Of a DNA stretch of 64,000 nucleotides, positions 22,871 to 57,013 are shown one piece after another. The stretch spans positions 1,836,089-1,900,088 of the forward strand of contig CAJNDT010006135.1 in assembly GCA_905221615.1 (NCBI GenBank). The letters run 5' to 3'. This DNA comes from Symbiodinium sp. CCMP2592 (taxonomy: Eukaryota > Sar > Dinophyceae > Suessiales > Symbiodiniaceae). Within the stretch, counting starts at the first letter, position 1. Each line of letters starts with the position of its first letter. The notes under the pieces were generated by a model that saw nothing but the letters and a program-made list of their open reading frames with translations, was not told the DNA's origin and did not search any database. The translations under genes and the position numbers were made by a program.

Positions 22871-22983
22871 CTAGACCCAAGAGTAACCTAGGAACAAAAA
22901 GGGTGCCCTTTTTGGTTTAAAGGGGCTTATAAGGGGACCTGAACCCTAAAAAAAGGGAATAAGGGCCTACTCCAGGTTTTAGT
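22871..22983. mobile_element. Family M element, identical to 43523-43635
   Basis: 113 bp starting CTAGACCCAAGAGTAACCTA and ending TCCAGGTTTTAGT. All 113 bases match the copy 20.6 kb away. Confidence 0.75.
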
Positions 22984-26244: not shown

Positions 26245-26405
26245 CGCCTCGGCCCCGGCCGACAAAATCATGGCCCACTGCCCCCCCCCCCCCCTAAAAA
26301 ATGGAAACGTGTCGATGAGCCCCAAGGTCCGGCGGTGAATTCTCGCCTTCTCCAATGGATCCCGCTCCTCCTCCCCACCCCCTTCCCCCCTCCCCCCCTC
26401 CCCCC
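26245..26405. mobile_element. Left part of a GC-rich insert in the K element
   Basis: Begins CGCCTCGGCCC, contains a C15 run near 26281, and ends in a C/T-rich tract where the LTR element has entered. GGGCCGAGGCG, the exact inverse of its first 11 bases, lies near the far end of the right part (42689-42699). No ORF supported. Confidence 0.55.
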
Positions 26406-26653
26406 TGTGCCGATACACCCCCAAGGAATACTCCTTGTGAGGAGGTGTATGACCAGTTATTCCCTAAGGATCAAAGGGCAGCGCCCTGCACACGGACAGT
26501 AGTTGTTTTGTCTTGCTACGCAAGGAGAGCTTGTCTTGTCTCAATATGGTAAAACCACTGTGAGCCAATGGGCAGCGGAATGTATATGTATGAGCATGCA
26601 GCCATTGCTGTAGGTACCTGTTAGAGCTACCCCTTTAGAGGTTTATGGTTTCA
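26406..26653 (-). repeat. 3' LTR
   Basis: 248 bp, identical to 42062-42309. On the minus strand it starts TGAAACCATAAACC and ends TCGGCACA. It contains a TTTT motif (plus 26550-26553) that could act as a dinoflagellate-type promoter box, and CCATTGG (CCAAT type). No functional evidence beyond sequence. Confidence 0.95.
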
Positions 26654-26661
26654 AACAGACA

Positions 26662-26676
26662 CTAATTTTCTTTTAC
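26662..26676 (-). promoter_or_regulatory. Possible polypurine tract
   Basis: The minus strand reads AAAAGAAAA about 12 bases before the 3' LTR. Its distance from the LTR is unusual, so plus-strand priming here is only a guess. Confidence 0.3.
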
Positions 26677-26953
26677 CGGAAGCATGGCCGCACATTCACA
26701 CATATACTATTATGCCCACTGTCACAGTTGCGGAGTTTTGGACTCATGATAAAAACAGCATATTGTTTATGCTAGGTAGCACTGAAGTACACTGCTGAGG
26801 ACACTCCTTTTGCACACACTCATGCATGTTGGTCAGAGAGATCGTCTGTACAAGATCATGTCTGGTGATATTTTCTACATCGAATTATGCAGCCCTTCAC
26901 TTTGCTCTTGTTAGAGCTTTGTGAGTCACTGTTGTGAAACTCTGAGATTTTCC

Positions 26954-29900
26954 TTATCTCAGATTTGGATCCAGGTTTGGATCATAGGCTCGAGCGTAGA
27001 CGTTCGGATGTGGCTCATCCGGGTCTGAGTGATCTTCTTCGGAACTTGAATAAATTCCGAGTAGTCTGTTCTCAGCCCTGGTGAAGGCGGCGTCTGCAGT
27101 ATCATATCCATGGTTGGATGTTGTCGCCTTTGGCTCGGCCTTTGGCGCAGCTTGTGAGCTGACTGGAGTTGCCTTGGCTTTAGCCGGTTGTGGCTGCTTA
27201 GCCTTTGCCCGTTCAGCCCTTCTTCTTTCAAGCTGTCCGTCTGAGGACGCCCATGATCTTTCACTTTCATCTCCTGAAGGAGATAAGGCGTGGGCATAAA
27301 GGCTATTCCAGTACTGTGCTGCAGAAGGAGTTAGGACTTCTTCATTGTCAGATTCTGACTGGTCTTCCTCAGAGCTTTGGTCGTCAAAGAGTGTCTCGAG
27401 GACATTTTTGAGATTGTTATTTCTTCGCTCTATCTCTAGTGAGGAATGGACCAATTGGTTAAAGACTGTCCTTGAGTCCTTCAGTGCTGTTAGAAGGATT
27501 TCCACTCTGGATAGAGTATCTTGGATGGTGTCAAGATGTTCCTTCCTTTCCTCCTTGTCTCTCTGGATAGAGCTTCGCAATGATTGTGCGATTCTGAGGA
27601 GGTCTGTGTATTTCGTAAGAGGCATAGTTACCGTTTGATTGTCATGTATGACAGTTGTTTCGTCGCCGCTTAAGTTCCTGAATAGGACTTCCACGACTGG
27701 TAGAAACTCCGTGCTCCACGGTTCCTCTTCATCATATGTTTCTACGTGCTGTAGCACGCGTTGTGTAAACTGATCGGCTGCTTCTACCGTTGCATCGATA
27801 GAGCTGACGTGTCTTGCTGCCATGTTTCGGCACGTAATGTTAATTGCCTGGCCTTGATTGGCTTCGTTAAGTGCAGCGTCTGCATAGGTGCAGAGTCCAC
27901 TGTTGTGGGCTTCTCTGGCTGCCTTTCGTTGAATGCGCCGATTTTGACCTCCTCTTCTGGTAGGACCTTTTGGTCTCGGAGGATCTGAAGGTACTGTTCC
28001 TTTCGCCTTTGGCGGAGGACTCTTAGGTGGAGGTGACATGTTTGCCTTGTTAGGCACTGGTGGCATTGCCTTGGGCGCTGACGACGATGCGGCACTTGAG
28101 AGTGCAGATGTACCTTTGGCTTTTGCCGAGGATCCCTTGGGGATCGATGTATAGGTAATCTGCATGGCTTCTTCGGCCATTTGTGCATGCAATGCATCTT
28201 TGAATAATTGCGTCATATGAGGAGTGGTACTTGCATCATCGTAGGTCTGGAAGCGCTCAATGTCTCTTTCGGTGCCACGTGGACGTGTATCACCTCTTTG
28301 AAAAGGATCGTTCCTGCGAATCTCCGCAACTTGTACTGCATGGAGGCAGTTTTTGCACAGCACCTTCCTGCAAACATCTCTTGCTTGCTTGAGCTGATAA
28401 CAGCTGTCTGAGAGATGGTAGACTTCGCTTCGGGAAGTATGCCAGATAGGTCGTAGATCAGTTGTTTCTCCGGAATTGACCCTGTTGGGTCCTAAAGGTT
28501 CACGCGTCTGCGGTTCATCCTCGGGTTCGAGGAATGGAACTCTTTGGTTCGCTGCTGCTTTTGATTTTGGTTGTTGGCGCTCCATACATCTGATAGGAGG
28601 CCTGGTAATCTGCTTCCACATCCAGTGTAAGCCCATTAGCAGCAGAAACACATTCCACGCGATGCTGAAGACGGAGAAGTCCTGCTCACTGGTTAGTGAG
28701 TTTGGAAGTGAAGTTTCATCAGTCTTGATAGACTCTGCGTTCGCTCCACCTCGGTTGCGGTGTCCGAACCAGCCCGACAACCCCGCTGCTGTAGCAGCTG
28801 TTCTGAGTGCCTTGCCGCTCGGAGCAGACGGTGGACGCGATGCCTTCCTTCTTCTTCTCCGGCTGGAGGATTCGTCCTCTTGTTCCTCTTCATCTCTCTG
28901 AGCAGACATCAAGTTTGATGTTTCTCTTTCGTGTTCTTCGATGTCACTTTTTGTTGGTGACGGTTCTTCTTCTAGTCCATCCAGCTCTTCCAAAGACATG
29001 TTGAGCTTGTCAACAATATTGGTTCTTTGAGGCCTGGACCTTGATCTTGGTAGATCTTGTTGTGAAGAGGACGATGATTCCTGGTTCCTTCTTGGAGGAG
29101 GACCTTCAGGCTCGCTGGGACGTTCAGGCTGTGGCCATTCCCAGAATCTTCCGTATCTGTGATGGCTACCTGATGGTTGCGATCTGTCGTACCAGCTGTT
29201 GCCGGATGAGTAAACGAATGAATCTTTGTAACCCCAGTATTCAGCATTACGCTGCTTGAAAGCCTTTCGCTTGTCAGCGATCTTCTGAACCTGGGCATCT
29301 GACCGGTTGTGTTTCCCTTTTGTAAGGATTGGTTGTATCGTGAAGCCCAAAGGGCTGTGCCAATCTTTGTCAGAGGGACTCAACCATAGGTCAAGGTTAG
29401 AAAAAGTTGAATAGTACTGCTTGACTGAGACAAACAGACGGATATCAATATCCCTGTTATTGTTCATGTCCTGCCACATATCTGAGATTCGCTCCCAGTA
29501 TGTTCTTTCGGCGGCAGGTGTAACATCTCTTGGACTAGGTGACGCCGTGTGCGGCGTTTTACTCCAGTCAAGGATATAACTGTTGATACAGTCAAGGTCA
29601 GCAACTTTCTTCGCCGGGTCCGCCGGTAGACGATCTGCACGTGCCAGTCTGTGCTGGTCGGAGTTGTTCAAGCAAAGATGTCGCACTTGTGAGTGCCTTC
29701 CTGCTATTTTGTTGAATGCTGCAAGTTTCTTCTCCAGGTATAGAGAAAACAAACTGTTTCGCGGGTGAACGTCTCCACCTTTTAAGGTGAGCCTCGACGC
29801 AATATTATTGAGATCTCCCGCTATTACATCCGGTTTAAAAGGGAGAATCTCGTTGAGGAACGCGTTCACCAGTTCGCGTCTCTGTTCTTCCTTATGAGTC

Positions 29901-30106
29901 ATGAATGAGTTGAAATGGACGATCGCGATGGTGATGACCTTGTAAGGCCCTTTTGTACACCACATCTCGTCAAGATCGTTCGATGCTTCTTGTGAGAAGA
30001 TCTCTGCGTATGACTCAAAGTCTTCCTCTGGTGGCTCATCACCCTCGACATGGCCGTTCCATTCACAGAGAACCGGCGAGGGGTCGAGGTCGACAGTGTC
30101 AGGCAA
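26954..30106 (-). CDS. Accessory ORF4: second half of EEP domain, membrane segment, coiled coil
   Basis: Fourth ORF of the LTR element. The listed first codon is TTG; the frame is open from about 30133, and I see no ATG at the start, so it is probably reached from ORF3 by a -1 frame change. Residues about 55-100 contain IVHFNSFMTHKEEQRREL and DVIAGDLNN, like the central and GD-N motifs of endonuclease/exonuclease/phosphatase proteins. WLSPSDKDWHSPLGF near 245 resembles the closing D/H motif. After an S/R/E-rich stretch, one hydrophobic helix (about 475-495, SVFSIAWNVFLLLMGLHWMW) could span a membrane. A VYHL..C....C..C motif near 560-588 may bind metal. A coiled coil lies at about 830-900. 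ORF3 carries the missing first half of the EEP fold. EEP domains are usual in LINEs, not in copia elements. Confidence 0.75.
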   Translation of the reverse strand: MPDTVDLDPSPVLCEWNGHVEGDEPPEEDFESYAEIFSQEASNDLDEMWCTKGPYKVITIAIVHFNSFMTHKEEQRRELVNAFLNEILPFKPDVIAGDLNNIASRLTLKGGDVHPRNSLFSLYLEKKLAAFNKIAGRHSQVRHLCLNNSDQHRLARADRLPADPAKKVADLDCINSYILDWSKTPHTASPSPRDVTPAAERTYWERISDMWQDMNNNRDIDIRLFVSVKQYYSTFSNLDLWLSPSDKDWHSPLGFTIQPILTKGKHNRSDAQVQKIADKRKAFKQRNAEYWGYKDSFVYSSGNSWYDRSQPSGSHHRYGRFWEWPQPERPSEPEGPPPRRNQESSSSSQQDLPRSRSRPQRTNIVDKLNMSLEELDGLEEEPSPTKSDIEEHERETSNLMSAQRDEEEQEDESSSRRRRRKASRPPSAPSGKALRTAATAAGLSGWFGHRNRGGANAESIKTDETSLPNSLTSEQDFSVFSIAWNVFLLLMGLHWMWKQITRPPIRCMERQQPKSKAAANQRVPFLEPEDEPQTREPLGPNRVNSGETTDLRPIWHTSRSEVYHLSDSCYQLKQARDVCRKVLCKNCLHAVQVAEIRRNDPFQRGDTRPRGTERDIERFQTYDDASTTPHMTQLFKDALHAQMAEEAMQITYTSIPKGSSAKAKGTSALSSAASSSAPKAMPPVPNKANMSPPPKSPPPKAKGTVPSDPPRPKGPTRRGGQNRRIQRKAAREAHNSGLCTYADAALNEANQGQAINITCRNMAARHVSSIDATVEAADQFTQRVLQHVETYDEEEPWSTEFLPVVEVLFRNLSGDETTVIHDNQTVTMPLTKYTDLLRIAQSLRSSIQRDKEERKEHLDTIQDTLSRVEILLTALKDSRTVFNQLVHSSLEIERRNNNLKNVLETLFDDQSSEEDQSESDNEEVLTPSAAQYWNSLYAHALSPSGDESERSWASSDGQLERRRAERAKAKQPQPAKAKATPVSSQAAPKAEPKATTSNHGYDTADAAFTRAENRLLGIYSSSEEDHSDPDEPHPNVYARAYDPNLDPNLR

Positions 30107-33100
30107 GCCTCTGGTGAGAGGTAAGAGCCATCAGTGGGTCCATCCTTGTCAGGATTTTTGCCCTTGAGTGGGTCATATCCGATAATCTGCATGAACTCGT
30201 CTCTCGTCATCCTTTGGCCAGAATATGGGTGGACCCATTCTTTTGCCTCTGGGATGGTACTGTGGTACCCAAAGGTGAGGCGGCATACCGCACCGTGGCA
30301 TGCCCACAGTCGCTTCTTGGGACCACCATTCTTAGGCTTCATTGTTCGATGACGGTAAAAGTGGTGGACGAGAGCGATGTCTGTCGTTGGGTCACCCTTG
30401 ACTCCAATATACATCGAGGGTGCCTCAGGCTCCTTGGGAGGAGAATGGATTAGCATCCCCCTGTATTCATGTTGTCGCATGGTTGCGATCGAATACTCTG
30501 ACGCAAGTGCTCCTGCCTCGAGTACGAGGGTAATATGAGCTGAATTGTTGAAGCACATGTCAATAAGAGGGTGATAATCGAATCCCTTCTCAGGTTTGAG
30601 CTTCTTTTTGGGATTCCCTGCGGGCACCGGCGCTCGATCCATATTTCCCCAGTTGAATACCACTAGGTTTAGCGATACGCTGTCTGGGTTTGAGCCTTCA
30701 ATGTATTCTCTCTTCTCGTTAACACCGGCCATCCTATTGCGAACTATCTCGTAATGTGCGTCGAGCACCAGTTTGTCTTCGTAGCCAGTAAGAGAGAGAA
30801 AAGAAGCCGGGTGGCTTGTTCTAGAGTCCTTGATATTGATGTGACTCTTGTTAATGCTCTTGTATTCCTCCAGGGTTGGAGCCTCTGTGGAGCTGTCATA
30901 CGTATTCGGAGGATTGTTCCTAATATCATCAAGGCTGCATGGATCAACGCCTGGATGGTCCTTTTCGAACAGATTTCTTGCGTGGTCGCAATACATGTTG
31001 ATTTTCTGGACTGCCAAATCTACGTCCTCATGTGTGAGGATGGCCTCGTATAAAAACTGACGCTCTTCTGAGGTCATTCCTGCTCTCACTTTAGAGGTCT
31101 CGAGGCAATCGATTGGCAAGACGCACTCGCACATCCGTTGTTTACCCTGTGGGGTAAGTCGACAGTCTGCACATACAATCGTACCACAGGAATAGCAAAA
31201 ATAGCCTGTAGGCTGTTTGCAGAGATCGCAGAGAGGATTGTCTGGTCGAGGCAACATCCGTATCCTTTGGTTAAGGCTCATGGCTGTCCTGCGTACTCCT
31301 ACAAATCTCTCCTTGGTAGGAGGTGCAGAGGAGGAAGATGCAGACTCTCTGGGTCTGTCCCACTCCTCTTCGTCAGGAGCCTCAGAATCTTTGATCATGA
31401 GTGGACTTCGGATTTTTCGATTCCATCGACTAACCCAGATTCTCTCTTGCATTTCCTGTTGCATAGCCGGGTTAGATGATGACTTCGAGATTCGGTGCTT
31501 GCGATTTTCTTGAATTCGAGCGCTGATGCGCTCTTGTTCTCTTATGAGGTCTTCCTCATCAGCAGGCTCCTCGTATTCGAGGTTGAGCTTGCTTCTGTTG
31601 ACTCGATAATAAGTTTCCGTTTCAGGATCGAAGAGAACTAGGAATTTTTCCTTCTCCTTTTTAGGAGATTTTGGTTTCCTTGGCTCTTCGTCTGAACTCT
31701 GAACATATTCTGTTTCAGGCTTTGGTTGGTCAAGTTTGACCTTCTCAAGTTTCTCTGTGATCTCTTCCGTGGGAGATTCTTTCTTCTCCTCTGACGCTGC
31801 AGGTGCAGAGTTCGTCTTGTGAGACGGATTAACATCAACTCGGAGTTCTGAGGATGACGAAGATTTTGAGCTCTTTTCGCTCTTTTCGCTTGATGCCGAC
31901 TCAACGTCTGATTCTTCGTCACAATCCTGGTTAGGATCTGGTTCCTCAGGTTCCGTCTCTGTTCCAGAAGATTCTTCCTTGGGAGGAACTACGTTGGCAG
32001 AAGTATCCTGAACAGGTTCTGGAGGTTTGTGACCTGTCGTTATCTTAAGAACTTCAGTGGAGCTTCTGGTGCCGTCGGAGTTCCAGAGCTGTCCCATAAG
32101 ACTGTCCGGATCCTTATCTGCCTCGGCCTGACGGGCGAGCTTGGATCTCGGATGGATGTCCTTTGTAGTAGTCTCCGTTTTCGGAGGTACCTCACCTGCG
32201 GAAGCGGTTTGCTCCAGGTTTGGAGCTGTGTCAGTCTCTGTATTTGGCAGAGAGAAAGACTTCTTGTGAGAAGATCTAGCCTTGGGAGGCTCTGGAGGCA
32301 GATTTCGCTTTGACACCTTCCGAAGTGTCGATTCGATCTCTTGGCCGTAATTTGCGCACCATTTCTTCGACTCGTAAGTCGCTGACGGCATCTGTTCGGA
32401 GCAGTGGTCTGCCCACCATGGTCCGATGCTCTTGAGCTCATCGTATTGCGATGATACCCAGAGTGGTTCAGAGGGTGCGAATACGGCGCTAAGAGTACGG
32501 GCATGCACTACCTCTGGTGTAGCAAACATCCCTGCTTGCGACTGCCACATGTTTGTGACTTCGTTCACTACGTTATTTGCGTCGAATACTAGAAGCAGTG
32601 CCTTGTTGGCACGCAACATGGTCGGATTAGGATTCGCCAGGTCTAGCGTTGAAAACTGAACAGTGTCCCTGTTGGAACGACTGTTTTCGTTCACGAGAGC
32701 TTGAAGACCTGGTGATGTAACCACCTGCGATAGGAGGTTTGATGGTACCAGACCGTGCCTCAGGATTGAGGATAATGCCTGTAGGTCCGTGGCATGCATG
32801 ATGTAACAAGGGTTGTTCTGTCGAACAAAATCCTCCATGCCTACGGGTCTCGGCGCGTTAGTGGAGAGACGCTGTGCACGGGACTGCACTGGATTGCTGC
32901 CCGTTGCCATGAAGTCTGAGATGGTCATGTGTGACCTTGGCCTCTCTTCTTCAGGATCTGGTTCTTCAACTCTTGGTAGAGTTCGTCGTGAACCGTGTCC
33001 TCCCACTGCCGAGAGGAAAACTTTGGTCATGGTCAGCACATTTGCATCCGGTGGGATGGTAACGGCGGCATCTGTGGTTTCGGCCTTGCCATCCTGGTTA

Positions 33101-33867
33101 TAAACCATAGTGACCACGAACCTGGACTTAGTGTTGAGGAGGACACCAAGCGCGATCTCTTGTGGTGTATACTGTGCGAGCTCTGCATCGGCCAACTTGG
33201 ACATGTCCAGAAGATAATTGTGTTGGCCAGCAAAGAGATCTGGGCGCTGGTTCTGAAGGTGTCTTGTTGAGTGTGCTAACCACCTTCCGACTCTGTTGGT
33301 CTTGGAAAGAATGTGGAAGCACATCTCTGGTGAGAGACCTGTTACCTCTGCCAGTCTTGGCACTGAGGAGGAATAGTCATATTCTCCAGATGCATCAAGA
33401 CTCACACATTGTTTTACCTCCGGTGGGAGGCCTGTCTGAAGGTGATGTGCAAGCATCGTACAAAACTGGCGTGGATCACGAGCGTGATTACCCACGTTGT
33501 TATCCCAGTATAAAAGGGGACTGTTGTCCCATGGTCCTTGAAGGACTCCTTCGTAGAGCCTGACTCCATGTCTGGAGATTGGAGTGAGCCTTGCTCGACT
33601 CGCATGGCCACATCGTGAGATCAGTTCAGCAAGATCTCTTGGATGCGGATTGAACACCTGTTGGTGACCCATGTAAATGTATGGAGGCTCGTGATTTTTC
33701 TCACGTTTGTGAAATCGGTGTCCACCGTGTTCGGTGTGTCGACGTGATGCTTCCCGACGAGACTCGGGGTACGAGCTATCCATGTGTGGATGTCGCTCAT
33801 GGTACGCCTGTACTGCCCTGGGTAGGGCGTGTCCATCACGGCTACGGAAGTTTGATCGTGTGCTCAT
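29899..33867 (-). CDS. Accessory ORF3: Tpt1/KptA-like segment, zinc module, first half of EEP domain
   Basis: Third ORF, starting at an ATG (33865-33867) 224 bases after ORF2 stops. Residues about 350-470 hold HATDLQALSSILRHGLVPSN and LLLVFDANNV. The H-x-T...I...GL pattern recalls the ADP-ribosyltransferase-like fold of RNA 2'-phosphotransferases (Tpt1/KptA), though the usual later H-H motif is not evident. About 560-780 is E/S/K-rich and probably disordered. About 877-910 has CDLCKQ...CYSCGTIVCADC...CEC, a compact zinc-binding module. From about 1060, LNLVVFNWGNMD and LVLEAGALASEYS resemble the first EEP motifs (N and catalytic E). The last about 75 residues, after about 1245, look like out-of-frame translation, because the overlapping ORF4 frame continues the EEP fold. 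Distant copia relatives may encode the pair as one protein. Confidence 0.75.
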   Translation of the reverse strand: MSTRSNFRSRDGHALPRAVQAYHERHPHMDSSYPESRREASRRHTEHGGHRFHKREKNHEPPYIYMGHQQVFNPHPRDLAELISRCGHASRARLTPISRHGVRLYEGVLQGPWDNSPLLYWDNNVGNHARDPRQFCTMLAHHLQTGLPPEVKQCVSLDASGEYDYSSSVPRLAEVTGLSPEMCFHILSKTNRVGRWLAHSTRHLQNQRPDLFAGQHNYLLDMSKLADAELAQYTPQEIALGVLLNTKSRFVVTMVYNQDGKAETTDAAVTIPPDANVLTMTKVFLSAVGGHGSRRTLPRVEEPDPEEERPRSHMTISDFMATGSNPVQSRAQRLSTNAPRPVGMEDFVRQNNPCYIMHATDLQALSSILRHGLVPSNLLSQVVTSPGLQALVNENSRSNRDTVQFSTLDLANPNPTMLRANKALLLVFDANNVVNEVTNMWQSQAGMFATPEVVHARTLSAVFAPSEPLWVSSQYDELKSIGPWWADHCSEQMPSATYESKKWCANYGQEIESTLRKVSKRNLPPEPPKARSSHKKSFSLPNTETDTAPNLEQTASAGEVPPKTETTTKDIHPRSKLARQAEADKDPDSLMGQLWNSDGTRSSTEVLKITTGHKPPEPVQDTSANVVPPKEESSGTETEPEEPDPNQDCDEESDVESASSEKSEKSSKSSSSSELRVDVNPSHKTNSAPAASEEKKESPTEEITEKLEKVKLDQPKPETEYVQSSDEEPRKPKSPKKEKEKFLVLFDPETETYYRVNRSKLNLEYEEPADEEDLIREQERISARIQENRKHRISKSSSNPAMQQEMQERIWVSRWNRKIRSPLMIKDSEAPDEEEWDRPRESASSSSAPPTKERFVGVRRTAMSLNQRIRMLPRPDNPLCDLCKQPTGYFCYSCGTIVCADCRLTPQGKQRMCECVLPIDCLETSKVRAGMTSEERQFLYEAILTHEDVDLAVQKINMYCDHARNLFEKDHPGVDPCSLDDIRNNPPNTYDSSTEAPTLEEYKSINKSHINIKDSRTSHPASFLSLTGYEDKLVLDAHYEIVRNRMAGVNEKREYIEGSNPDSVSLNLVVFNWGNMDRAPVPAGNPKKKLKPEKGFDYHPLIDMCFNNSAHITLVLEAGALASEYSIATMRQHEYRGMLIHSPPKEPEAPSMYIGVKGDPTTDIALVHHFYRHRTMKPKNGGPKKRLWACHGAVCRLTFGYHSTIPEAKEWVHPYSGQRMTRDEFMQIIGYDPLKGKNPDKDGPTDGSYLSPEACLTLSTSTPRRFSVNGTAMSRVMSHQRKTLSHTQRSSHKKHRTILTRCGVQKGLTRSSPSRSSISTHS

Positions 33868-34091
33868 TACGGCACGATGACCAAACAGGATCAGGAATGC
33901 TTGGTTAGCTCAAAAGGCTGATTGCTGTGAGGCTCGAGGCTGAAAGCGGCTGCGGATGATACAGAACATATAGTTCTCATGAACATGTCCGATCTTGATG
34001 AAAACGCAGCCTGCAGACACAAATTTTCTTTTAGACGGAAAACAGTCTAAATAGAAAATCCAGCACATGGTTGTGCTGCCAGCAAACAAGA
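33868..34091 (-). other. Spacer between ORF2 and ORF3 with two small hairpins
   Basis: 224 bases between the ORF2 stop (TAG) and the ORF3 ATG. Two perfect 7-bp stems are close together: CAGCACA/TGTGCTG (plus 34061-34078, 4-base loop) and TTTAGAC/GTCTAAA (34030-34051, 8-base loop). They might help re-initiation or mark an RNA-processing point between the two polyproteins. I see no direct evidence for either. Confidence 0.5.
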
Positions 34092-37000
34092 CTACCACCA
34101 TGTTCCTTGGCAATAAAATAATCGGTAAATCTCTGTTGAGACATCAATTCCAAGGAAGGCTACCGCTGTAGCGGCATTCTTAAGGTTGTCTATGATCCAC
34201 CGAACAGTGAAAGCTTTATGTTGAAGAAGTTCACGGAAGGGTGGATGAATGTCTGTTTCTGGTAAATTTCCTGTTTCCAGAGCCTTGATAAGCTCATCAG
34301 GTTGCGCCGAATGCTTTGTTAATGCATCAGCTAGGCAGTACTTCGAGCTTACATGAGCTAGGTCATCTAAAGATCCAGAGTTGGATTCCTTACGAAGCAT
34401 CTGTATAAGATGGTGAGTTTCCTTCTGCTCTGGAAGGTGTGTCGTGCCTGCTGTTGTCACAAGATTGTTCGCATCTGTTCTGATATGTATAGGTACGGTC
34501 TCTGATGAGAGATCTGCCCAAAGTCCCTTGAGGAACAGGCAGGTACCAAAGCAACGCATCAGTGCGTTAAGCTCTGCCACTGTTGTGGACATTGTGGTTG
34601 TCGTAATCTTGTGAGACTCATAATCCACCAGGCTACCTCTCGAGGATGTTTCCTTAATAGAGGATTCAGAGAAATCGTTCTTCTTGGAAGAAGCAGCTGC
34701 TGCTGATTGTTTCATTCCCTTTAGCTTTGGATTTCGATCTTCAGCAAGGAAAATAACATGTGCTCTCTGAGATGATTTGTCATCATTGTTCCTGTAGGAA
34801 GCATCAGGGTAACCGAGGATTCTGAGATTTCCTTTCAGCGGCCAAAAACGCAATTCTACTTCGGTAGACTTCAAAATCCTAACAAGCTTGTTCAATTCTC
34901 GAATATCACCGATAGTAGGCTTGGCAGCCTTGCTCGCACACCGACTGAAGCGATAACAGATGTGAGCTTGAGTCCGGCTTTGTAGCCAGTTGATCTGTCC
35001 TAAAACACTTCTATAAGCAGTGTGCTGCTGTGGTGTGCATTGTTGCTCATTGTTGAGCTTCTTATCAAAAACAATTTCTTCTAGAGCTTCAACAGCTAGG
35101 TTCTGATTTACTGAGATATGTGCTGGCACTGATGCTGTAGCATCCTTCCAGACTAATCTCTGTCCTACAAACATGATATCATTCGTGTCTTCAGAACCTA
35201 CTGCAAACTCCTTTTTGATCGATTCAATCACGGCCTTACGAAAGGTGTCATCACCGGCCATGCACAGGTCATCTACATGCAAACAGACTACTCCATGTAC
35301 CTGTCTACCCTTGGCATTGTTGCCTGCTATGGGATCTAGGAGATAGTCAATCGCTGATTCCATGGTCTTTGGCTGAGACTTCTTGAGCTCAGCATCTGCT
35401 GTTGCAGACTTCTTACCATACAGAACATATGTACAGCGATCCGCACGGGTTGGCACCAGGCCATAAGACAGGAGTGCCTTATCAACGATGTTCCACCATC
35501 TTCGAGGTGCATCGTTAAGTCCATAAGCGGGTTTCTTCATCCTCGCTGCAATGTAGGAAGGATAACCTGCTTCAGGAGGAATCTGACAGATTATGTCTCT
35601 CGACTCATCATAGGCTTCACCCTGCAGGAAAGCAGTCTTTAGGTCGATGTGTGTCAGATTCCACAGCTTGTTAGCTGCTAGTTGAATCGCTAAGCGGAAA
35701 CCTGGGCGACTCGCAGCAGGACTATCAGTTTGCTGAATGTCCTTCTGTCGATCCTGGAAACCTCTCAGGACCCATCGGGCCTTGCACTTAAGGAAGTTTC
35801 CGTCCTTGTCTCTTTTTAGAGTCAGGACCCATCGACCAGTGACATAATTTCGGATGTTTCCGAGTTTCCGTGTATCGACGAGCTCAAAGACATCATTGTC
35901 TAGCCAGCTCTGATATTCTGCTGCTTTCGCTTCATCAAACTGTTTCTTCATCTCACGCTTTTCCTTGGCGGTTGCCTCCTTCCGTTGTGCCTTCTGGGTC
36001 AGATTCGCTGAGTTCCTGGGGGAACTTAGGGATAAGGCCTTGTCCTCTTCCGTGAGAAGATCGTACTCTTCACGAATGTCAGATCGGAACCTTTTGGTGG
36101 GTTTATACCGTGTTCGGTCTGACCTCACTCTTGATGTTACCTCTCTGATGTCTACGGGTCCGCCATGCATGTACCGAGGCATGGAGAAAGAACCTGTGTT
36201 ACTGCACAGTTTCTGTTCTTCTGTGAGAAGGACCCAGTCCTTCTCATCTACGACCAGGTCACCTTCCTCATCAGAGTAATACCTTGTGTTTTCTGACTCG
36301 GCATCGCTCTCCGGTTCTGGTGAACCAGAAGTGTGAGGAGGAGCGGACGGTTGTCCGGGGTCGTCTGGGACCAGTTCTTCTTCAGTGTCTTCTTCATCTT
36401 GTTGTAACGGAAGAATGGGTCCCTGTGGATGTGCCTTCGGTTTAGGTTTTGGTGTCGGCACCTGTGAAGGTGATTTCTGTTTGTGCGGCGAAACTTTCCT
36501 TTCCGATGAAGACCTTGGCGACACATCACCCCCCAGACGCCGAGGAGACGGAACGCGAGGAGGCGGATGCACGCGAGGCTTAGCCCGAGCAGGAGCCACG
36601 GGCTCATCGGAGGAAACGGCCGGTAGTCGCGGTGGAGGTATGGGAGGAGGAGGACGCGACGGCGGCGTGCCGGGAGGCATCGGCTGATCTGGTTCCGGCA
36701 TAGAGACATCGTCAGATGTGATCCGTGAGCGATTAGTGCTCATTGGTTCTGACGGGTCTGACGGCGAAACCTCTTCGTCCGACATGATTACATCCGGCGG
36801 TGTTCGCACGGACGGTGAAGTCTTGCCGCCTGTCATCTGGAATAGCACCCCCGAGAAGGTTGATGGGTGTACCTTGTTCCAGGAAACCTGGTGCGGCAAG
36901 CAACACGTCATAGTCGAATTGGGCTTCTTCTTGTTCCAAAAGACAAGAACGCCATCAGTTACACTGGTGAGTGCTTTGACTGTTCCAAATGTACCTCTGT

Positions 37001-37784
37001 ATAGAGTACACTGTTCGAAACCAGACCCTGGTAAGAGTCTTGATCTAAGGCGAGTAATGTCTGACACCAAGGCATCAAGGGACGGTGATGGTTTGGAATG
37101 ATGCAATGGTAATTCAGTTTTACTCGATAAGGAATTTACTCTAGCAACAAGTGATCTGATTTTTGGATCTTGCAGGAGTTTTGAATCCTTGAGAGGATTT
37201 GTTGTCAAAAGTGAATACTCCTGATCAAGAAGTTCCGAAAGTCCCTGGAGGCATTCATCTCCAGAGTATTCTAGTATGTCTGTGACCAAAGACAGATGAG
37301 ATGCATACGCATCTCGCTTCAGGAATCTTGCCAAACACGAGGCAAAGGTCTCACAGAATTCATAAGGATACACTTGTGCGAGTTTCGTTTTAAGACCGTA
37401 GCCTTGAATACCCTTTTCGTCTCCTGGTGGAGATGTTGGAGATTTCGTTTTGGCAGAATGCCTCTGGAGAGGAATTAAAACTTGCGGTGGCAAGTTGTGC
37501 ATAAAAATCGAGGATTTCGATTCATAGTATCCTGTTGGATCTTTCATGCCATAGGCCTGTAGGTTACAGACCTCATAGCTGATCTTATGATTAGAAAACA
37601 GGCGTTTTGCTTCTGGTGAAGACCAGAGCCTGCTGTAGTATGGGTTCTCAAGAACAAAGTAACGTCCGAGCTTCATTTGGTGGTCTGCGACCGATTCACA
37701 GAATTTTAAAACAGAAAGTCTCTTGGCAGAGCCTTTCTTCCACTGTGAGTACCAGCTAGACCACTGAGAATGGTCCGGTGACAT
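34092..37784 (-). CDS. ORF2: methyltransferase-like segment, copia reverse transcriptase, RNase H
   Basis: Second ORF, ATG at 37782-37784, overlapping ORF1 by 79 bases in the -1 frame; the frame is open from about 37815. Residues 1-60 (MSPDHSQWSSW, then QMKLGRYFVLENPYYSRLW) look like the later motifs of a cytosine-methyltransferase-type fold, with SPDH where SPPC would be expected. About 350-500 is proline-rich. The reverse transcriptase follows: ARWVLRGFQ, IDLKTAFLQGEA (about 711, first catalytic D), KPAYGLNDAPRRWW and LHVDDLCMAGDD (about 836, catalytic DD). RNase H follows: GYPDASYRNNDDKSS (about 991), TTVAELNALMRC, RTDANNLV and KYCLADALTKHS (about 1150). All key copia motifs are intact, so the enzyme could be active if ORF2 is translated. 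Confidence 0.93.
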   Translation of the reverse strand: MSPDHSQWSSWYSQWKKGSAKRLSVLKFCESVADHQMKLGRYFVLENPYYSRLWSSPEAKRLFSNHKISYEVCNLQAYGMKDPTGYYESKSSIFMHNLPPQVLIPLQRHSAKTKSPTSPPGDEKGIQGYGLKTKLAQVYPYEFCETFASCLARFLKRDAYASHLSLVTDILEYSGDECLQGLSELLDQEYSLLTTNPLKDSKLLQDPKIRSLVARVNSLSSKTELPLHHSKPSPSLDALVSDITRLRSRLLPGSGFEQCTLYRGTFGTVKALTSVTDGVLVFWNKKKPNSTMTCCLPHQVSWNKVHPSTFSGVLFQMTGGKTSPSVRTPPDVIMSDEEVSPSDPSEPMSTNRSRITSDDVSMPEPDQPMPPGTPPSRPPPPIPPPRLPAVSSDEPVAPARAKPRVHPPPRVPSPRRLGGDVSPRSSSERKVSPHKQKSPSQVPTPKPKPKAHPQGPILPLQQDEEDTEEELVPDDPGQPSAPPHTSGSPEPESDAESENTRYYSDEEGDLVVDEKDWVLLTEEQKLCSNTGSFSMPRYMHGGPVDIREVTSRVRSDRTRYKPTKRFRSDIREEYDLLTEEDKALSLSSPRNSANLTQKAQRKEATAKEKREMKKQFDEAKAAEYQSWLDNDVFELVDTRKLGNIRNYVTGRWVLTLKRDKDGNFLKCKARWVLRGFQDRQKDIQQTDSPAASRPGFRLAIQLAANKLWNLTHIDLKTAFLQGEAYDESRDIICQIPPEAGYPSYIAARMKKPAYGLNDAPRRWWNIVDKALLSYGLVPTRADRCTYVLYGKKSATADAELKKSQPKTMESAIDYLLDPIAGNNAKGRQVHGVVCLHVDDLCMAGDDTFRKAVIESIKKEFAVGSEDTNDIMFVGQRLVWKDATASVPAHISVNQNLAVEALEEIVFDKKLNNEQQCTPQQHTAYRSVLGQINWLQSRTQAHICYRFSRCASKAAKPTIGDIRELNKLVRILKSTEVELRFWPLKGNLRILGYPDASYRNNDDKSSQRAHVIFLAEDRNPKLKGMKQSAAAASSKKNDFSESSIKETSSRGSLVDYESHKITTTTMSTTVAELNALMRCFGTCLFLKGLWADLSSETVPIHIRTDANNLVTTAGTTHLPEQKETHHLIQMLRKESNSGSLDDLAHVSSKYCLADALTKHSAQPDELIKALETGNLPETDIHPPFRELLQHKAFTVRWIIDNLKNAATAVAFLGIDVSTEIYRLFYCQGTWW

Positions 37785-40700
37785 AACAATAATAGTAGGT
37801 TCTTGTTCCTTGATGATCTAAGAAGATTGGAGCGACCTTGCGGTTGCTCAAGATCTAGACCGCTACGCAAATCGACTGGCTGACCTACTCGCAGACCTGA
37901 CAGGGCAGCCTTGTGACTCATGCGGGGAGATCCGCCGTAGAGTTCTAGGAAGTCAATCTTCCCAGTGCTGGTGACCTGCCAGTGACACTCTTGATGTGGA
38001 ACCGTTAGGTCTGTCGACTGCAGGGAAGCATCGAAGGTGACCATGCAACTTGCGTGGTCAGAACCTTCTGACGTCAGAGTTTCCTCATCAGGCGCGAGAG
38101 GAATCTCCACATCAGATGTTATGTCATAATTTTTCCTCAGTTTTGAGATATTGACGCGGACGATGCGTGTTCCAAGATCCACACCTACCATGGATCCTCC
38201 GAGTTCGGAGATCACCTTTCCTTTTAGCCAAGATCCATGTTTGGACCCAGTGGATCCAATCTTAGACTTATCTTCTGACCAGTAGAAAACCTTATCTCCC
38301 AAAGAGAAAGGTCCTTGGGTCATTGACAGTCTGGCTGCAAGATCTCTACGCAGATCATCAGATTGGCGTGCCTCTTGGTAAGCCCTGTTGGCAAGCTCCT
38401 TAATGGCTCTCGCAGTGACTTCCGTATCAGTTGGATTACCTGTCAACTGATTGGGATCAGCGTTCTCTGGTGTTATAACATCTCGAGGACGCCTTCCAAA
38501 GGCCATTTCTAAAGGAGTAACTCCTCCGTAGGTAATCGAAGAGTTTCTTGCCAAACATGCTTGGCGAACGAGGTTGCCATACTTCATGGTGATTCCGTTA
38601 TACTGCGGGTCACCATCCTTCAGGATCTGAAGTATGAGCTTAATCTGATGCTTCAGCAATCTTACAGCAGCTTCGGCCCTGTTGGGCCATGGTGTTCCAG
38701 GTCCTGTTGCCACAGGCTTGATATTCTGCCGATTGTAATAAGCCTCCATTTTTGGAGTCATGAATGCTTGATCTCCAACTACAACCTTTGGGTTGATCTG
38801 AAATTTCTCAAAGTAGTCATTCATAATCGACATTGTAGTATGTTCTTCTTTATCCTGGACTACTTCGGCAGTCAACAAGTTTGTTGCTCCATCATAGAGA
38901 ATAAGAAATACTAAGCGACTATCCTTGCCGGGAATTGGAAGCTCACCGTGATCTACGAAGGTGAGATCACCGAAAGTCTCTGATCTTAAACCAGAAATCT
39001 TCGCTCTTGAAGGAGCTCTCACATGTTCCTGGCAGGCTGAACACTTTTTGACCAGTTGGTCATATAGCTCGTATATCTCCTTTGGGATCTGTAAGGCTTT
39101 TGTGCGTCGCTTGAACTGATCCGTACTCATATGACGGTGCTTAAGGTGAAGCTTATAGAGTTCTACAGGGTCCTTAAGCTTCTCATGAATCCTGCGAAGA
39201 GCAATGGGAAGAGATGGCGATGGTTCTGCGACAATCTCTTCACCTGTAGGTGAGTCTGTACCAGGAGCCGGGTATTCTCTTGACTCAAGTGGTCTTACCT
39301 CCGTCCCGTCATCAGCTCCTGGGACCTTAGACTTCTCTTCAACAGGAGGTTTAACCGCATATTTGCGGGATTTCTTCAGAAGGTTTTTAAGACCCTTTGG
39401 AGTCTTTATCTTCGCAGGTGGGACCTCAAGTCTTTCTTCTTCTGGAGGTTCATGTGGTGCAGAGGATTCTGCAGGTTTGTCCCTAGAGCCTGATGATGGT
39501 TCCGATGGTCCGGAAGGCTCAGGAGCATCACCAGATGGTTCTGGTGGATCAAGTTTCTTGGCAGATGATTCTGCCGGATCAGATGGAAGAGGCTTCTTTT
39601 TACCTGAAATCCTCTTCGGTGGTGGATCAGCTGCTCCCTCAGGTGCTTTGTCGCAACCCTTGAGGTACGTGTGAGCCCTTTTCTGTCCGGCACAGGCTGG
39701 ACAGCGACCTTCCGGTATCCTAGTATAAGGCTTATTGGCTCCTAGAGCAGTCTCCGTCGCACTGAACGACGTACCTGACTTAGGGAGATACTTCCTGGTG
39801 GAAGTGAAGCCTAGAAGGTCCAATACCAAATGGTTATTGGTACTAATCGGAAGAGGGGTTTTATACAAACCGAAAGCTTCACACGTTGCTAGGTCAGCTG
39901 TGGGACTACACTCGAGAGTCATTCTTAAATTCCTCATCTGTTCGATGGAGAACAAAATGGGAACTCTCCCCTGATCCAAAACTTCTATGGTTGTATCTCT
40001 TCTTGGAGTTGTGTTGAACCATAGAGTTACACGCTCCTTGATAAGAGCTGTTTCACTATCTGCGAAAGAGAACTTCGTGTTCGAAGGTGAAAAAGTGAAA
40101 TCAATCATGCCTGGGGCACGTTGCTTCACGGCCTTGATAAGCCTGTTCACCGCATAGCGGGAACCCATAGCCCTAGTACAACCAGAGTCAAGTATGACAA
40201 AGGTAGGGCTCTTATCAAGATTGATCCGCTCTGTGAGAGCAGATAGGACGGTGTGCTGCAACGGAAACACCGCTGTTGCAGTTTCAACACCTTGCCCCTC
40301 GGATGGTTCAAAGACCTGGGGCACGTAACTCACTGATGAGTTGAACACGGGTTCTTGGTGCGCGCTCGGATCTGTGCCTCTACCTGATGATCCTGCTTGA
40401 TTTCTTCTCTTCTTTCTCCGTGTTTTTCTTCGTGAGGCTTGTGATGCATAGTATGTATAAGACGTTTGATCGTCATAAGCGGCATAATTCCAACTGGAGT
40501 CAGTATAATAACTGTCCTCATACCATGAATCCCAGCTCGGTGCGGTGGAACTTTCATAGGCCTGTGGAGATCCAGTTTGGTCTCCTTGTAAGGAGGCAGA
40601 CTTAGCTGTATCCTTACCTTTGCCTTTTGCCTTTGTACCTTTGAAGGAGCTTCCTTTATCTCCTTTGTCCTTTCCTTTTCCTTTGCCTTTTCCACCTTTT

Positions 40701-41959
40701 CCTTTTTCCTTTCCTTTACCTTTACCGAAATAGCTGGAATCAGTTGGATCATGTTCTGCCTGGTTGGCTCTCCCTTTTCCGCGGTATGACCTAAAACGGC
40801 CACGTCCTTTTCGCTTGCCACCCTTTGCTCTTCCCGGTGATCCGGGACGCATTCTTGGTCTTCTTCCCTTTTTGAATCTCCTTGCAACGAAGGCCTCATG
40901 GTCGTCAACTGTCCAGAAGACAGCTTCTTCATCCTCGGCGGCAAGAAAGCCTTCCTCAAGGGTGTCTTCGTCTTGGAGCCAGAATCCATCGACTCCGTCG
41001 TATTCACCCTGATCGAGGATGAGGAAGTTTCGACCTCCGCGTTTGCGGCGTTGGTCTCTCCTTCCATGGCGGTCCTTCTTGTGAGAAGAGTGCCGAATGT
41101 TGGGATCCTGCAGACCAGTTCTGGTCGTTGAGAACTGATCGAACATGGTCTGCCGTACCACAGGGTACGTATAGGTCTCAATTCGGTGACCTTGGTTGGT
41201 CAATGCTGTTACCAACCTCTCACGTTGCATCTCATTTAGGTCGGACTGCACTAGGAAGAGGAGAGCTAGGAGATTATCATTTAGAGGAAACGCTCTTCGA
41301 TGATTATCAAGGCGTTCCTTGTTCCATGTTTCGAAGAAACGTGCGGCGTATGTGTCTCTCTCGGTTGCATCCTGTAGGCGCAAGAAGGTTTGATCTGCCT
41401 GCACAGCTTGCATGAAATCTGGATGGGCATCTTCCAGAGCTATCTCTGGTAAGAGATCCATCCATGAGTTTTTCACGCGCTGTAGCACGATCTCAAACTT
41501 AGCAATCCAAGTCACAAAGTCTTGGTTGCCCTTCCATGCCTTGAATAGGCCGAGGAAACGCCACAGGAAAACGTACTGTTCTCCTTTCACGAAAAATGGA
41601 CGCATCTTCTTCTTGAAGTAATCTACTCCATCTGGGGCTGCAAGCCTTTCTCGGTTAAGTGATTCTTTTTGTACTGCGGCCAATCCGGAGAGCCTCGTCT
41701 TGAGAGACGGACCTCTTTTGGTGTCATCCAGCGTTGTTATGTCGCACCAGTCGTCAATCAACTGTTCATACTCAAACCACGAGGTGGTGCCATCATAGGC
41801 AGGCGCGATCTTGGGCGTTATGCCTAATGATGCAAGCATGCGGTCAGATGTTGCATATGACTGTGCGACATAAGTGGCTGGACCTTGGGAGGTCTCTTCG
41901 TTCTCATATCCCCCGGAGGATTGGGAACTGCCGTCGGCTTCGCTATGCGAGCTCGACAT
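37706..41959 (-). CDS. ORF1: Gag, aspartic protease, integrase, start of methyltransferase-like segment
   Basis: First ORF, ATG at 41957-41959, about 100 bases inside the 5' LTR. Residues about 30-300 form the helical Gag region. No CCHC knuckle is visible; instead about 370-460 is a basic glycine/lysine stretch (GKGKGKEKGKGGKGKGKGK). Protease: VILDSGCTRAMGSRY at about 588, with DSG as the catalytic triplet. Integrase: zinc motif HLKHRHMST...CSACQEH (about 936-972), then D (FVDHGELP, about 1001), D (VVGDQAF, about 1060) and E (WPNRAEAAVRLLKH, about 1094), a complete D-D-E. Near the end IDFLELYGGSPRMSHKAALS resembles S-adenosylmethionine-binding motif I of methyltransferases. The last about 35 residues look out of frame, because ORF2 continues the fold from -1. 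The frame ends at TAA (37706-37708). Confidence 0.93.
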   Translation of the reverse strand: MSSSHSEADGSSQSSGGYENEETSQGPATYVAQSYATSDRMLASLGITPKIAPAYDGTTSWFEYEQLIDDWCDITTLDDTKRGPSLKTRLSGLAAVQKESLNRERLAAPDGVDYFKKKMRPFFVKGEQYVFLWRFLGLFKAWKGNQDFVTWIAKFEIVLQRVKNSWMDLLPEIALEDAHPDFMQAVQADQTFLRLQDATERDTYAARFFETWNKERLDNHRRAFPLNDNLLALLFLVQSDLNEMQRERLVTALTNQGHRIETYTYPVVRQTMFDQFSTTRTGLQDPNIRHSSHKKDRHGRRDQRRKRGGRNFLILDQGEYDGVDGFWLQDEDTLEEGFLAAEDEEAVFWTVDDHEAFVARRFKKGRRPRMRPGSPGRAKGGKRKGRGRFRSYRGKGRANQAEHDPTDSSYFGKGKGKEKGKGGKGKGKGKDKGDKGSSFKGTKAKGKGKDTAKSASLQGDQTGSPQAYESSTAPSWDSWYEDSYYTDSSWNYAAYDDQTSYTYYASQASRRKTRRKKRRNQAGSSGRGTDPSAHQEPVFNSSVSYVPQVFEPSEGQGVETATAVFPLQHTVLSALTERINLDKSPTFVILDSGCTRAMGSRYAVNRLIKAVKQRAPGMIDFTFSPSNTKFSFADSETALIKERVTLWFNTTPRRDTTIEVLDQGRVPILFSIEQMRNLRMTLECSPTADLATCEAFGLYKTPLPISTNNHLVLDLLGFTSTRKYLPKSGTSFSATETALGANKPYTRIPEGRCPACAGQKRAHTYLKGCDKAPEGAADPPPKRISGKKKPLPSDPAESSAKKLDPPEPSGDAPEPSGPSEPSSGSRDKPAESSAPHEPPEEERLEVPPAKIKTPKGLKNLLKKSRKYAVKPPVEEKSKVPGADDGTEVRPLESREYPAPGTDSPTGEEIVAEPSPSLPIALRRIHEKLKDPVELYKLHLKHRHMSTDQFKRRTKALQIPKEIYELYDQLVKKCSACQEHVRAPSRAKISGLRSETFGDLTFVDHGELPIPGKDSRLVFLILYDGATNLLTAEVVQDKEEHTTMSIMNDYFEKFQINPKVVVGDQAFMTPKMEAYYNRQNIKPVATGPGTPWPNRAEAAVRLLKHQIKLILQILKDGDPQYNGITMKYGNLVRQACLARNSSITYGGVTPLEMAFGRRPRDVITPENADPNQLTGNPTDTEVTARAIKELANRAYQEARQSDDLRRDLAARLSMTQGPFSLGDKVFYWSEDKSKIGSTGSKHGSWLKGKVISELGGSMVGVDLGTRIVRVNISKLRKNYDITSDVEIPLAPDEETLTSEGSDHASCMVTFDASLQSTDLTVPHQECHWQVTSTGKIDFLELYGGSPRMSHKAALSGLRVGQPVDLRSGLDLEQPQGRSNLLRSSRNKNLLLLLCHRTILSGLAGTHSGRKALPRDFLF

Positions 41960-42043
41960 TGTGCTGCCTCTTATCCGCTTGGTTAAGCGTTCGGCGAGGC
42001 CGACCGCTGTAGCGGACTTTGTGAGGCGGGCGGCCCTTTCCGG

Positions 42044-42055
42044 GCTCCGCTACCA
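42044..42055 (-). promoter_or_regulatory. Primer-binding site, initiator tRNA type
   Basis: The minus strand reads TGGTAGCGGAGC, six bases inside the 5' LTR. It would pair with a tRNA 3' end GCTCCGCTACCA, close to the TGGTA-start sites used by Ty1/copia elements with initiator methionine tRNA. The host tRNA is not known. Confidence 0.75.
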
Positions 42056-42061
42056 GAAAAC

Positions 42062-42309
42062 TGTGCCGATACACCCCCAAGGAATACTCCTTGTGAGGAG
42101 GTGTATGACCAGTTATTCCCTAAGGATCAAAGGGCAGCGCCCTGCACACGGACAGTAGTTGTTTTGTCTTGCTACGCAAGGAGAGCTTGTCTTGTCTCAA
42201 TATGGTAAAACCACTGTGAGCCAATGGGCAGCGGAATGTATATGTATGAGCATGCAGCCATTGCTGTAGGTACCTGTTAGAGCTACCCCTTTAGAGGTTT
42301 ATGGTTTCA
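42062..42309 (-). repeat. 5' LTR
   Basis: Identical to 26406-26653 at all 248 positions. Read on the minus strand, transcription of the element would start within it and proceed toward lower coordinates. Confidence 0.95.
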
Positions 42310-42721
42310 CCCCCCCCCCCTCCCCCCTTCCCTCCCGCCCCTCCTCCGCTCGCTGACAGGTGCGAGCTTTCTGGAGTTTTCGACGACACGGGACTGCAAT
42401 GTAGCATCTTTATGTGTTGGGGCTCGCTTTAAAGGTTGTAGTACCAAGCGAGTTTCAAACCTGAATTCCTAACCCTACACCCTGACCCCAGGCTGAAAAA
42501 TTGGGGCTCGCCTGTAAGGCTGCAGTACCAAGGGAGTTTCAAACCTGAATTTCTAATCCTACACCCTAACCCCAGCCTGAAAAACTTTCAAAGCCCGGAC
42601 AACACCTGCACCCGAAAGCACGACGCCCCCCTCTCCCTCCTGCATCCCCGCTTCCCCTCGTAGCCACTCGCCGCATGAGCGTACAGCCGGGCCGAGGCGG
42701 ACGACGCGCAGCGTTTCAAAT
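42310..42721. mobile_element. Right part of the GC-rich insert in the K element
   Basis: Begins with a C/T tract that continues the one at 26350-26405. Includes a tandem duplication (42417-42584) and GGGCCGAGGCG near the end. With 26245-26405 it makes a roughly 570-bp insert whose family I do not recognise. Confidence 0.55.
42417..42584. repeat. Two tandem 84-bp units
   Basis: TTGGGGCTCGC starts at 42417 and again at 42501. Both units continue through 'agtaccaag.gagtttcaaacctgaatt.ctaa.cctacaccct.accccag.ctgaaaaa' with few differences. Confidence 0.8.
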
Positions 42722-43522: not shown

Positions 43523-43717
43523 CTAGACCCAAGAGTAACCTAGGAACAAAAAGGGTGCCCTTTTTGGTTTAAAGGGGCTTATAAGGGGACCTGAACCCTA
43601 AAAAAAGGGAATAAGGGCCTACTCCAGGTTTTAGTTATGGTGTCTAGGCCCAGACCTTCCAAAACCCCTTAATTAAGGAATAGACCCTTAATTAAGGGAT
43701 TTTGGAAGGTCTGGGGG
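43523..43717. mobile_element. Family M (identical to 22871) then short family J
   Basis: 43523-43635 is an exact 113-bp copy of 22871-22983. 43649-43717 is a compact J palindrome: CCCAGACCTTCCAAAACCCC mirrors GGATTTTGGAAGGTCTGGG, with only 'aattaaggaatagacccttaatt' between. Confidence 0.7.
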
Positions 43718-56269: not shown

Positions 56270-56295
56270 GGGGCGCCCTACCAGGAGTGTTGGGA

Positions 56296-56375
56296 TCGGG
56301 GTATGTTTCGCGGGTATGTTTCAGGGTATGTTTCGGGGTGTGTTTCGGGGTATGTTTGGGGGTGTGTTTCGCGCA
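56296..56375. repeat. 11-bp GGTATGTTTCG repeats, cluster 1
   Basis: About seven units (GGTATGTTTCG, GGTATGTTTCA, GGTGTGTTTCG), ending GGGGTGTGTTTCGCGCA. The same ending closes cluster 3 at 56884-56962; a shorter cluster is at 56760-56805. Confidence 0.8.
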
Positions 56376-56396
56376 GACTCTGAGTTGTGGCAATAG

Positions 56397-56492
56397 AAGT
56401 AGTAGTAGCAGCAGCAGCAGGAGTAGGAGTAGAACTAGGCGTAGGAGTAGGAGTAGGAGTAGGAGTAGGAGTAGGGGTAGGAGTAGGAGTAG

Positions 56493-56555
<63 letters not shown>

Positions 56556-56635
56556 TAGCAGGAGTAGTAGCAGTAGCAGTAACAGTTAGCAGTAGCAGTA
56601 GCAGTAGTAGTGGTGGTAGTAGTAGTAGTAGTCGA
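56397..56635. repeat. AGT/AGG/AGC microsatellite
   Basis: Pure (AGT)n runs about 56490-56548 and (AGTAGG)n about 56430-56485. Long open frames here (S-, V- or T-rich) are repeat translation. Confidence 0.9.
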
Positions 56636-57013
56636 GACAATAGCTGCCGTAGTGGTACAGGCATCGTTGTGGGCTGCAGGTCTGGAAGGTCCCGACTTGT
56701 CAGGCGGTTAGTATCGCTTCGAAGCGGAAAAGGCCAACGGGCCACTTGGAGCAAATCCAAGTATGTTTCGGGTATGTTTCAGGTATGTTACGGGTATGTT
56801 ACGGGAAACCTTTCCTGACCTGTGTTGAGCTACTCTAGACCTTCGCCCGCTGCTAACTTCATCCAAACGAGTTGGATAACGCGGGGGTATGTTTCAGGGG
56901 TATGTTTCGGGGTATGTTTCAGGGTATGTTTCGGGGTATGTTTCGGGGTGTGTTTCGCGCAAGGACAACACTCCTCCAAGACTACAAATTCAACCCCCCA
57001 AAAAAAGACAGAC

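Follow-up and report, generated by a model that had tools for sequence, protein, structure and literature searches.

We found that a 64,000-nucleotide stretch of the Symbiodinium sp. CCMP2592 genome (hereafter the window; positions 1,836,089 to 1,900,088 of contig CAJNDT010006135.1, assembly GCA_905221615.1) carries a member of a recently active, high-copy family of Ty1/copia-type long terminal repeat (LTR) retrotransposons that encodes two polyproteins, gag-pol and an accessory open reading frame (ORF) of about 2,300 codons. The element occupies 26406-42309 (15,904 bp), with its coding strand on the minus strand. Our results support as the likely explanation a family that probably belongs to Symbiodinium, presumably a coral-symbiont alga, and whose accessory ORF serves replication of the element, in a capacity suggested by its predicted domains. 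The strongest unexpected result of the analysis is that the sampled copies of this family lie at C/G tracts, and their flanks suggest that insertion into poly(dC).poly(dG) is biased in orientation.

Two polyproteins in a high-copy family

The LTRs lie at 42062-42309 (5') and 26406-26653 (3'), both on the minus strand, which is the sense of the element. Each is 248 bp long, begins with TG and ends with CA, and the two are 100% identical; sequence comparison thus confirmed exactly the coordinates and the LTR identity given in a first-pass annotation of the window. The young insertion that it proposed is also borne out, as the paired LTRs differ at 0 of 248 positions in the window and in two other copies, C1846 and C224, and at one position in a fourth, C1. 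Six nucleotides inside the 5' LTR is a candidate primer-binding site (42045-42055, minus strand; TGGTAGCGGAG in the sense orientation), whose sequence appears to resemble the acceptor end of the initiator-Met tRNA.

The enzymes are of the copia type, as first annotated. ORF2 matches the reverse transcriptase (RT) profile PF07727 (RVT_2) with an E-value of 1.2e-17 (64.8 bits against a cut-off of 31.6), and the motifs follow the order protease, integrase, RT, RNase H, with the integrase motifs in ORF1 lying upstream of the RT in ORF2; the rve profile match to the ORF1 integrase is weak (0.016). In ORF1 (37706-42049), which covers gag, protease, integrase and the start of a methyltransferase-like stretch, we located the protease motif ILDSGCTRAMG (40163-40195), the integrase His/Cys zinc motif (39148-39029) and the integrase D, D and E residues (38956-38936, 38782-38762 and 38686-38663). 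ORF2 (34092-37817) contains the RT motif HVDD (35282-35253) and RNase H (34583-34314). All of these features are on the minus strand.

ORF1 and ORF2 are one gag-pol frame, and the window copy has a single break in it. The frame is open across the ORF1/ORF2 junction in C1846 and C1, for 2,534 codons (L031) and 2,544 codons (L033) to the end of the stretch read, the last ~100 RNase H codons lying beyond that stretch; it is broken in C724 and C224. The methyltransferase-like stretch (37632-37948, minus strand), recognized by eye as LELYGG followed by SPDHSQWS and LENP, runs across the frame break.

ORF3 and ORF4 likewise form a single accessory ORF with one break in the window copy. ORF3 (29899-33867, minus strand, from MSTRSNF) lies in a stop-to-stop frame open from 33909, and ORF4 covers 26954-30130 on the same strand. 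In C1846 the accessory ORF is uninterrupted (L027; 2,320 codons open, 2,306 from the first Met), which rules out two separate accessory proteins. Elsewhere the frame is broken at other places, by a stop in C724 and by one frame change each in C1 and C224. Because the breaks differ from copy to copy, they are private to individual copies and arose by mutation or sequencing error, and programmed frameshifting at the two window breaks is disfavored, since other copies read through these positions and break elsewhere. Thus, the ~7 kb of extra coding sequence annotated downstream of RNase H is present, as are all four long ORFs first described, but the division of ORF1/ORF2 and ORF3/ORF4 into separate frames does not hold, given that C1846 reads through at both places and C1 at the ORF1/ORF2 junction.

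The accessory module is a property of the family. We searched the assembly (1.098 Gb, 5,383 contigs) with the LTR, which gave 972 candidates, and with 601 bp of the RT, which gave 760, and scored the best 40 of each. Thirty-two of the 40 LTR matches, which include the window's own two, reached the top score of 448 bits, with eight one step below; 23 of the 40 RT matches, the window included, reached the top score of 1085 bits. In all 20 further RT copies that were read (19 at the top score and one just below), the accessory module was present at the expected offset, with 97.3-99.8% identity over the 451 bp read. Among the remaining 20 RT matches, the window, C1846 and C224 carry it by their own sequence. 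All copies sampled are close copies, with older lineages outside the sample. Four copies, those in the window, C1846, C1 and C224, retain both LTRs, with start-to-start distances of 15,656-15,676 bp. More broadly, seven contigs carry two scored LTRs, at spacings of 15.66, 15.66, 15.67, 15.68, 16.0, 24.1 and 27.2 kb, and no same-contig spacing among the 40 scored LTR matches is near 8 kb, the size expected without the module. Within the 20 RT copies and the spacings of the 40 scored LTRs, no family member lacking ORF3/ORF4 was thus found, and a one-off capture of the extra region is ruled out by its presence in 20 of 20 copies read.

Two exceptions to the simple LTR-pair pattern deserve mention. 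C724 was rejected as a full-length pair: its two LTR matches are both left ends that share one flank, and the first of the copies is truncated, with Ns in L032. Its accessory ORF (L028) was still used in the codon counts below. In addition, the LTR pairs with spacings of 24.1 and 27.2 kb (L035-L038; L024/L025 in C5112; L070/L071 in C84) represent rearranged or nested copies.

Purifying selection acts on the accessory ORF. With the C1846 ORF as reference, the ratio of nonsynonymous to synonymous polymorphism (pN/pS) of near-complete accessory ORFs was 0.228 in the window, 0.323 in C724, 0.200 in C1 and 0.196 in C224, and 0.272 in a 523-codon piece of C5112. For gag-pol, with C1 as reference, it was 0.048 in the window, 0.082 in C1846, 0.085 in C224, 0.089 in C5112 and 0.053 in C84; the C724 copy, which is truncated, gave 0.28. 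These comparisons overlap in their branches and are not independent of each other. When every variable site was counted a single time, pN/pS over the full accessory ORF was 0.264 (101 nonsynonymous and 111 synonymous sites). In nine regions of this ORF, each with few variable sites and approximate bounds, the ratio lay between 0.07 and 0.35 (the regions labeled 'TM+' and 'Ada-Zn' are offset from their motifs).

More distant relatives, represented by predicted proteins, also encode the accessory ORF. The closest named relatives are from Symbiodinium sp. CCMP2592 itself (93-96% identity over parts of ORF3 and 98.6% over part of ORF1), followed by S. microadriaticum and Symbiodinium sp. KB8, whose gene models are 62-69% identical over 11-18% of an ORF. 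Long relatives in ENA (P0001, P0002 and P0008) and Logan (P0009) protein sets are 54-61% identical to the window ORFs. The ORF3/ORF4 boundary is read through in the predicted proteins P0001, P0002, P0004 and P0009. In the S. microadriaticum and KB8 gene models, in which spurious introns are possible, and in P0010, pol and accessory pieces are joined in the same order. One further relative, P0011, came from a search with the alignment of the region resembling EEP nucleases described below, and three scans of viral contigs found no relatives. Separately, the CCMP2592 gene model P0003, named BSL3, combines pieces of the element with a phosphatase (PF00149) and is probably an annotation artefact.

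These data bear on whether the accessory ORF could be a passenger, that is, a host or viral segment captured without function for the element. Consistent with capture, 20 nt of the gap separating gag-pol from the accessory ORF (34014-34033, minus strand) match at 19 of 20 positions a stretch lying inward of the 3' LTR by 2 nt (26656-26675, minus strand), which contains the polypurine-like AAAAGAAAA. This repeat was present in all five copies inspected; it might mark an earlier capture or serve as another site of plus-strand priming, both of which are guesses. The accessory ORF also evolves faster than pol. However, the low pN/pS across four near-complete copies, the retention of the module in every one of the 20 copies read and the existence of long relatives at 54-61% identity are not what a functionless passenger predicts, and we consider this explanation highly improbable.

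Predicted domains of the accessory polyprotein

One predicted domain is a Tpt1/KptA-like region (32569-33270, minus strand), an assignment to which we give moderate weight based on profile similarity. The Pfam profile PF01885 (PTS_2-RNA) matches all four cut-out members of our Tpt1-like alignment, A2, with a best E-value of 1.3e-4, and hhalign comparison of A2 with five KptA sequences gave a score of 38.8 and a probability of 66%, whereas 200 column shuffles scored at most 27.0. The region contains the motifs STRH (33259-33270), KSRF (33118-33132), HAT (32749-32802), NRDTVQFS (32650-32673) and LRANK (32569-32616), all on the minus strand, and its pN/pS is 0.23. The tetrad of Tpt1/KptA RNA 2'-phosphotransferases is Arg-His-Arg-Arg (PMC6333775), and candidates for all four residues (R-H, R and R) are invariant across the four rows of A2. 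The last Arg was placed by hhalign, the middle Arg by the Pfam range and the R-H pair by eye (spacing 47 versus 48).

Other predicted features are spread along the ORF on the same strand. A B-box-like zinc finger at 31162-31230 matches PF00643 at 1.4e-4 (22.4 bits against a cut-off of 24.1), with weaker matches in the relatives P0011 (0.018) and P0002 (0.17) and none listed in P0001. The most hydrophobic segment (28616-28678) is, judging from hydropathy, a probable transmembrane helix. A Cys/His motif at 28346-28423, noted by eye, may resemble an Ada-type zinc site. Finally, a region at 29582-30657, which spans the ORF3/ORF4 frame break, resembles EEP nucleases in five ordered motifs recognized by eye (FNWGN, LVLEA, VHFNS, GDLNN and DLDCIN); we regard this assignment as weak. 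Its hhalign score against the largest EEP set was 28.5, compared with a maximum of 23.4 in 200 column shuffles, a lenient null. In cross-checks, hhalign gave probabilities of 0.1-0.4% for A2 against the EEP sets and 0.7% for A4 against KptA. Searches of the PDB, by sequence or profile, returned nothing useful, and PHROGs gave no match.

Several observations weigh against these assignments and the replication role that they would support. PF01885 falls below its gathering score (19.3 bits for the window member versus 26); on whole proteins it reached only 0.032 for ORF3 and 0.025 for P0001, and PTS_2-RNA was absent from full-length P0002 in a Pfam search up to an E-value of 1. The Tpt1 N-lobe alone had no hhalign support, and C724 lacks the NRDTVQFS string in that exact form. 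In P0001 the last Cys of the zinc finger is replaced. For the EEP-like region, no EEP family appeared among Pfam matches up to an E-value of 5 for five members, and its pN/pS of 0.338 (12 nonsynonymous and 10 synonymous sites) is among the highest in the accessory ORF, so that selection does not single out this part. AlphaFold models had a mean pLDDT of 39.9 and 31.8 (the latter for the EEP-like region), and neither fold was confirmed.

The EEP-like region could be an unrelated fold with look-alike motifs and no nuclease activity. In addition to the missing Pfam match and the weak constraint, hhalign probabilities against three EEP sets were only 1.7%, 3.5% and 5.8%, and the last EEP motif (SDH) was not found by eye at the usual spacing. 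Conversely, the five motifs occur in order, and none of the 200 shuffles beat the observed hhalign score. On balance we judge an unrelated fold to be a real possibility, but a somewhat doubtful one.

A further alternative is that the accessory ORF is an envelope-like gene that aids cell-to-cell or vesicle transfer, as in env-carrying plant copia elements. Its position downstream of RNase H, its separate frame and its one hydrophobic segment would fit such a gene. However, the ORF is very large, the hydrophobic segment is internal (as computed from hydropathy) and an enzyme-like region is present, making an envelope function very unlikely. Under the model that we favor, in which the accessory polyprotein serves replication, it would instead be read from a downstream or trans-spliced message and supply RNA- and nucleic-acid-end handling, with Tpt1-like NAD-dependent chemistry on RNA phosphates and an EEP-like phosphodiesterase, while the zinc finger and the hydrophobic segment may hold the protein at a membrane or in a complex.

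Insertion sites at C- and G-type tracts

The window copy sits in a C-rich tract (left flank 26361-26405, right flank 42310-42350), with CCCCC on both sides of the element. Such flanks recur across the sampled copies. When flank type was called from the 12 nt adjoining the LTR, read on the window plus strand with the element in a fixed orientation, 35 of the 40 scored LTR ends had C-type outer flanks and five had G-type. Four of the 35 C-type flanks (L047, L049, L051 and L060) contain less than 50% C over 30 bp because the junction C-run is short, and in L051 G exceeds C. By comparison, the rest of the window contains 47,820 overlapping 30-mers, of which 25 are at least 70% C and 17 at least 70% G. 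When the two LTRs of an element, and flanks that were duplicates, were pooled by eye, 27 C-type sites remained against 4 G-type sites (binomial 3.4e-5), although ends from separate contigs could still represent the same site. Merging by script at flank identity of at least 90% gave 24 versus 4 (1.8e-4), although this simple sequence was probably over-merged. At the C724 and C206 sites, the U5 end keeps the nucleotides between the LTR and the primer-binding site, as if untrimmed.

It is possible to explain this association without targeting, through survival, sampling or the addition of C-runs to the ends at integration. At several sites an uninterrupted run of 8-12 C adjoins the end and gives way to different sequence further out, as end addition would produce, and the sites come from the best 40 of 972 LTR candidates. 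However, in most flanks the C-richness extends over 30 bp, and its interruptions vary by site, so that the tracts look pre-existing; the sample was picked by LTR similarity alone, and survival is not expected to bias orientation. We therefore regard a non-targeting origin as unlikely, and the C/G-tract, oriented insertions may reflect targeting, to which a symmetric integrase alone would not give an orientation and in which the accessory protein may take part. Two points weigh against our main explanation: a 5-bp target-site duplication, as expected of Ty1/copia elements, is unreadable in a homopolymer, and flank composition was measured for this copia family alone.

A more specific model would link the two unusual features of the element. 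In this scenario, strand-oriented LTR integration into poly(dC).poly(dG) would use the accessory polyprotein, with its EEP-like nuclease and zinc finger, as a targeting or nicking factor, and the Tpt1-like part would process RNA or DNA ends, combining LTR copying with LINE-like target choice. We consider this combined model quite unlikely as a whole.

Other features of the surrounding sequence were noted. A 113-bp sequence, 100% identical, occurs on either side of the element (22871-22983 and 43523-43635), and TTTAGGG-like and CCCTAAA-like repeat arrays are scattered across the window outside it. At 55151-58601 (plus strand) is a non-LTR remnant, in which 55151-56269 matches RVT_1 weakly (0.002) and 56880-58601 contains a C2H2 zinc finger (4.3e-5).

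Relation to known elements

The element shares with Ty1/copia retrotransposons (Pseudoviridae) its LTRs, the order protease, integrase, RT, RNase H, and a single gag-pol frame. In contrast to these, it is about 3 times the usual size (~5 kb), has a second ORF of ~2,300 codons and shows oriented C/G-tract insertions. Sireviruses, the env-like copia elements of plants, also carry an extra ORF after RNase H, but the ORF described here is far larger and has Tpt1-like and zinc-finger-like regions. Relative to Tpt1/KptA enzymes, there is similarity in the NAD lobe and in the Arg-His-Arg-Arg candidates, yet the region lies inside a retrotransposon polyprotein and below the Pfam cut-off.

Acquired enzymes have precedents in the genus. 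SymbioLINE-Dnmt and SymbioDIRS-Dnmt3 are Symbiodinium LINE and DIRS elements with cytosine methyltransferases (PMC5890265). They resemble the present family as Symbiodinium retrotransposons with acquired accessory enzymes and differ in class, and the same report describes the Copia superfamily in Symbiodinium as having no DNA methyltransferase (DNMT) domain. Heat-activated Ty1-copia elements have been described in S. microadriaticum (Chen et al. 2018, as cited in PMC11453091); these share with the present family a young age, the copia type and the genus. Accessory domains of retrotransposons are discussed in PMC6338049, whose first part does not name Tpt1. Among the titles and abstract openings listed by our searches of open-licence papers, no copia element carried such a module or was inserted at C-tracts, and nothing on point tied Tpt1 or C-tract insertion to LTR elements.

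In summary, if our interpretation is correct, the known copia elements gain a recently active family of high copy number whose second polyprotein is maintained by selection. The orientation bias of the insertions raises the question of how an LTR element distinguishes its two ends at the target; with so many near-identical copies present in a single assembly, this question can be tested against sister strains.

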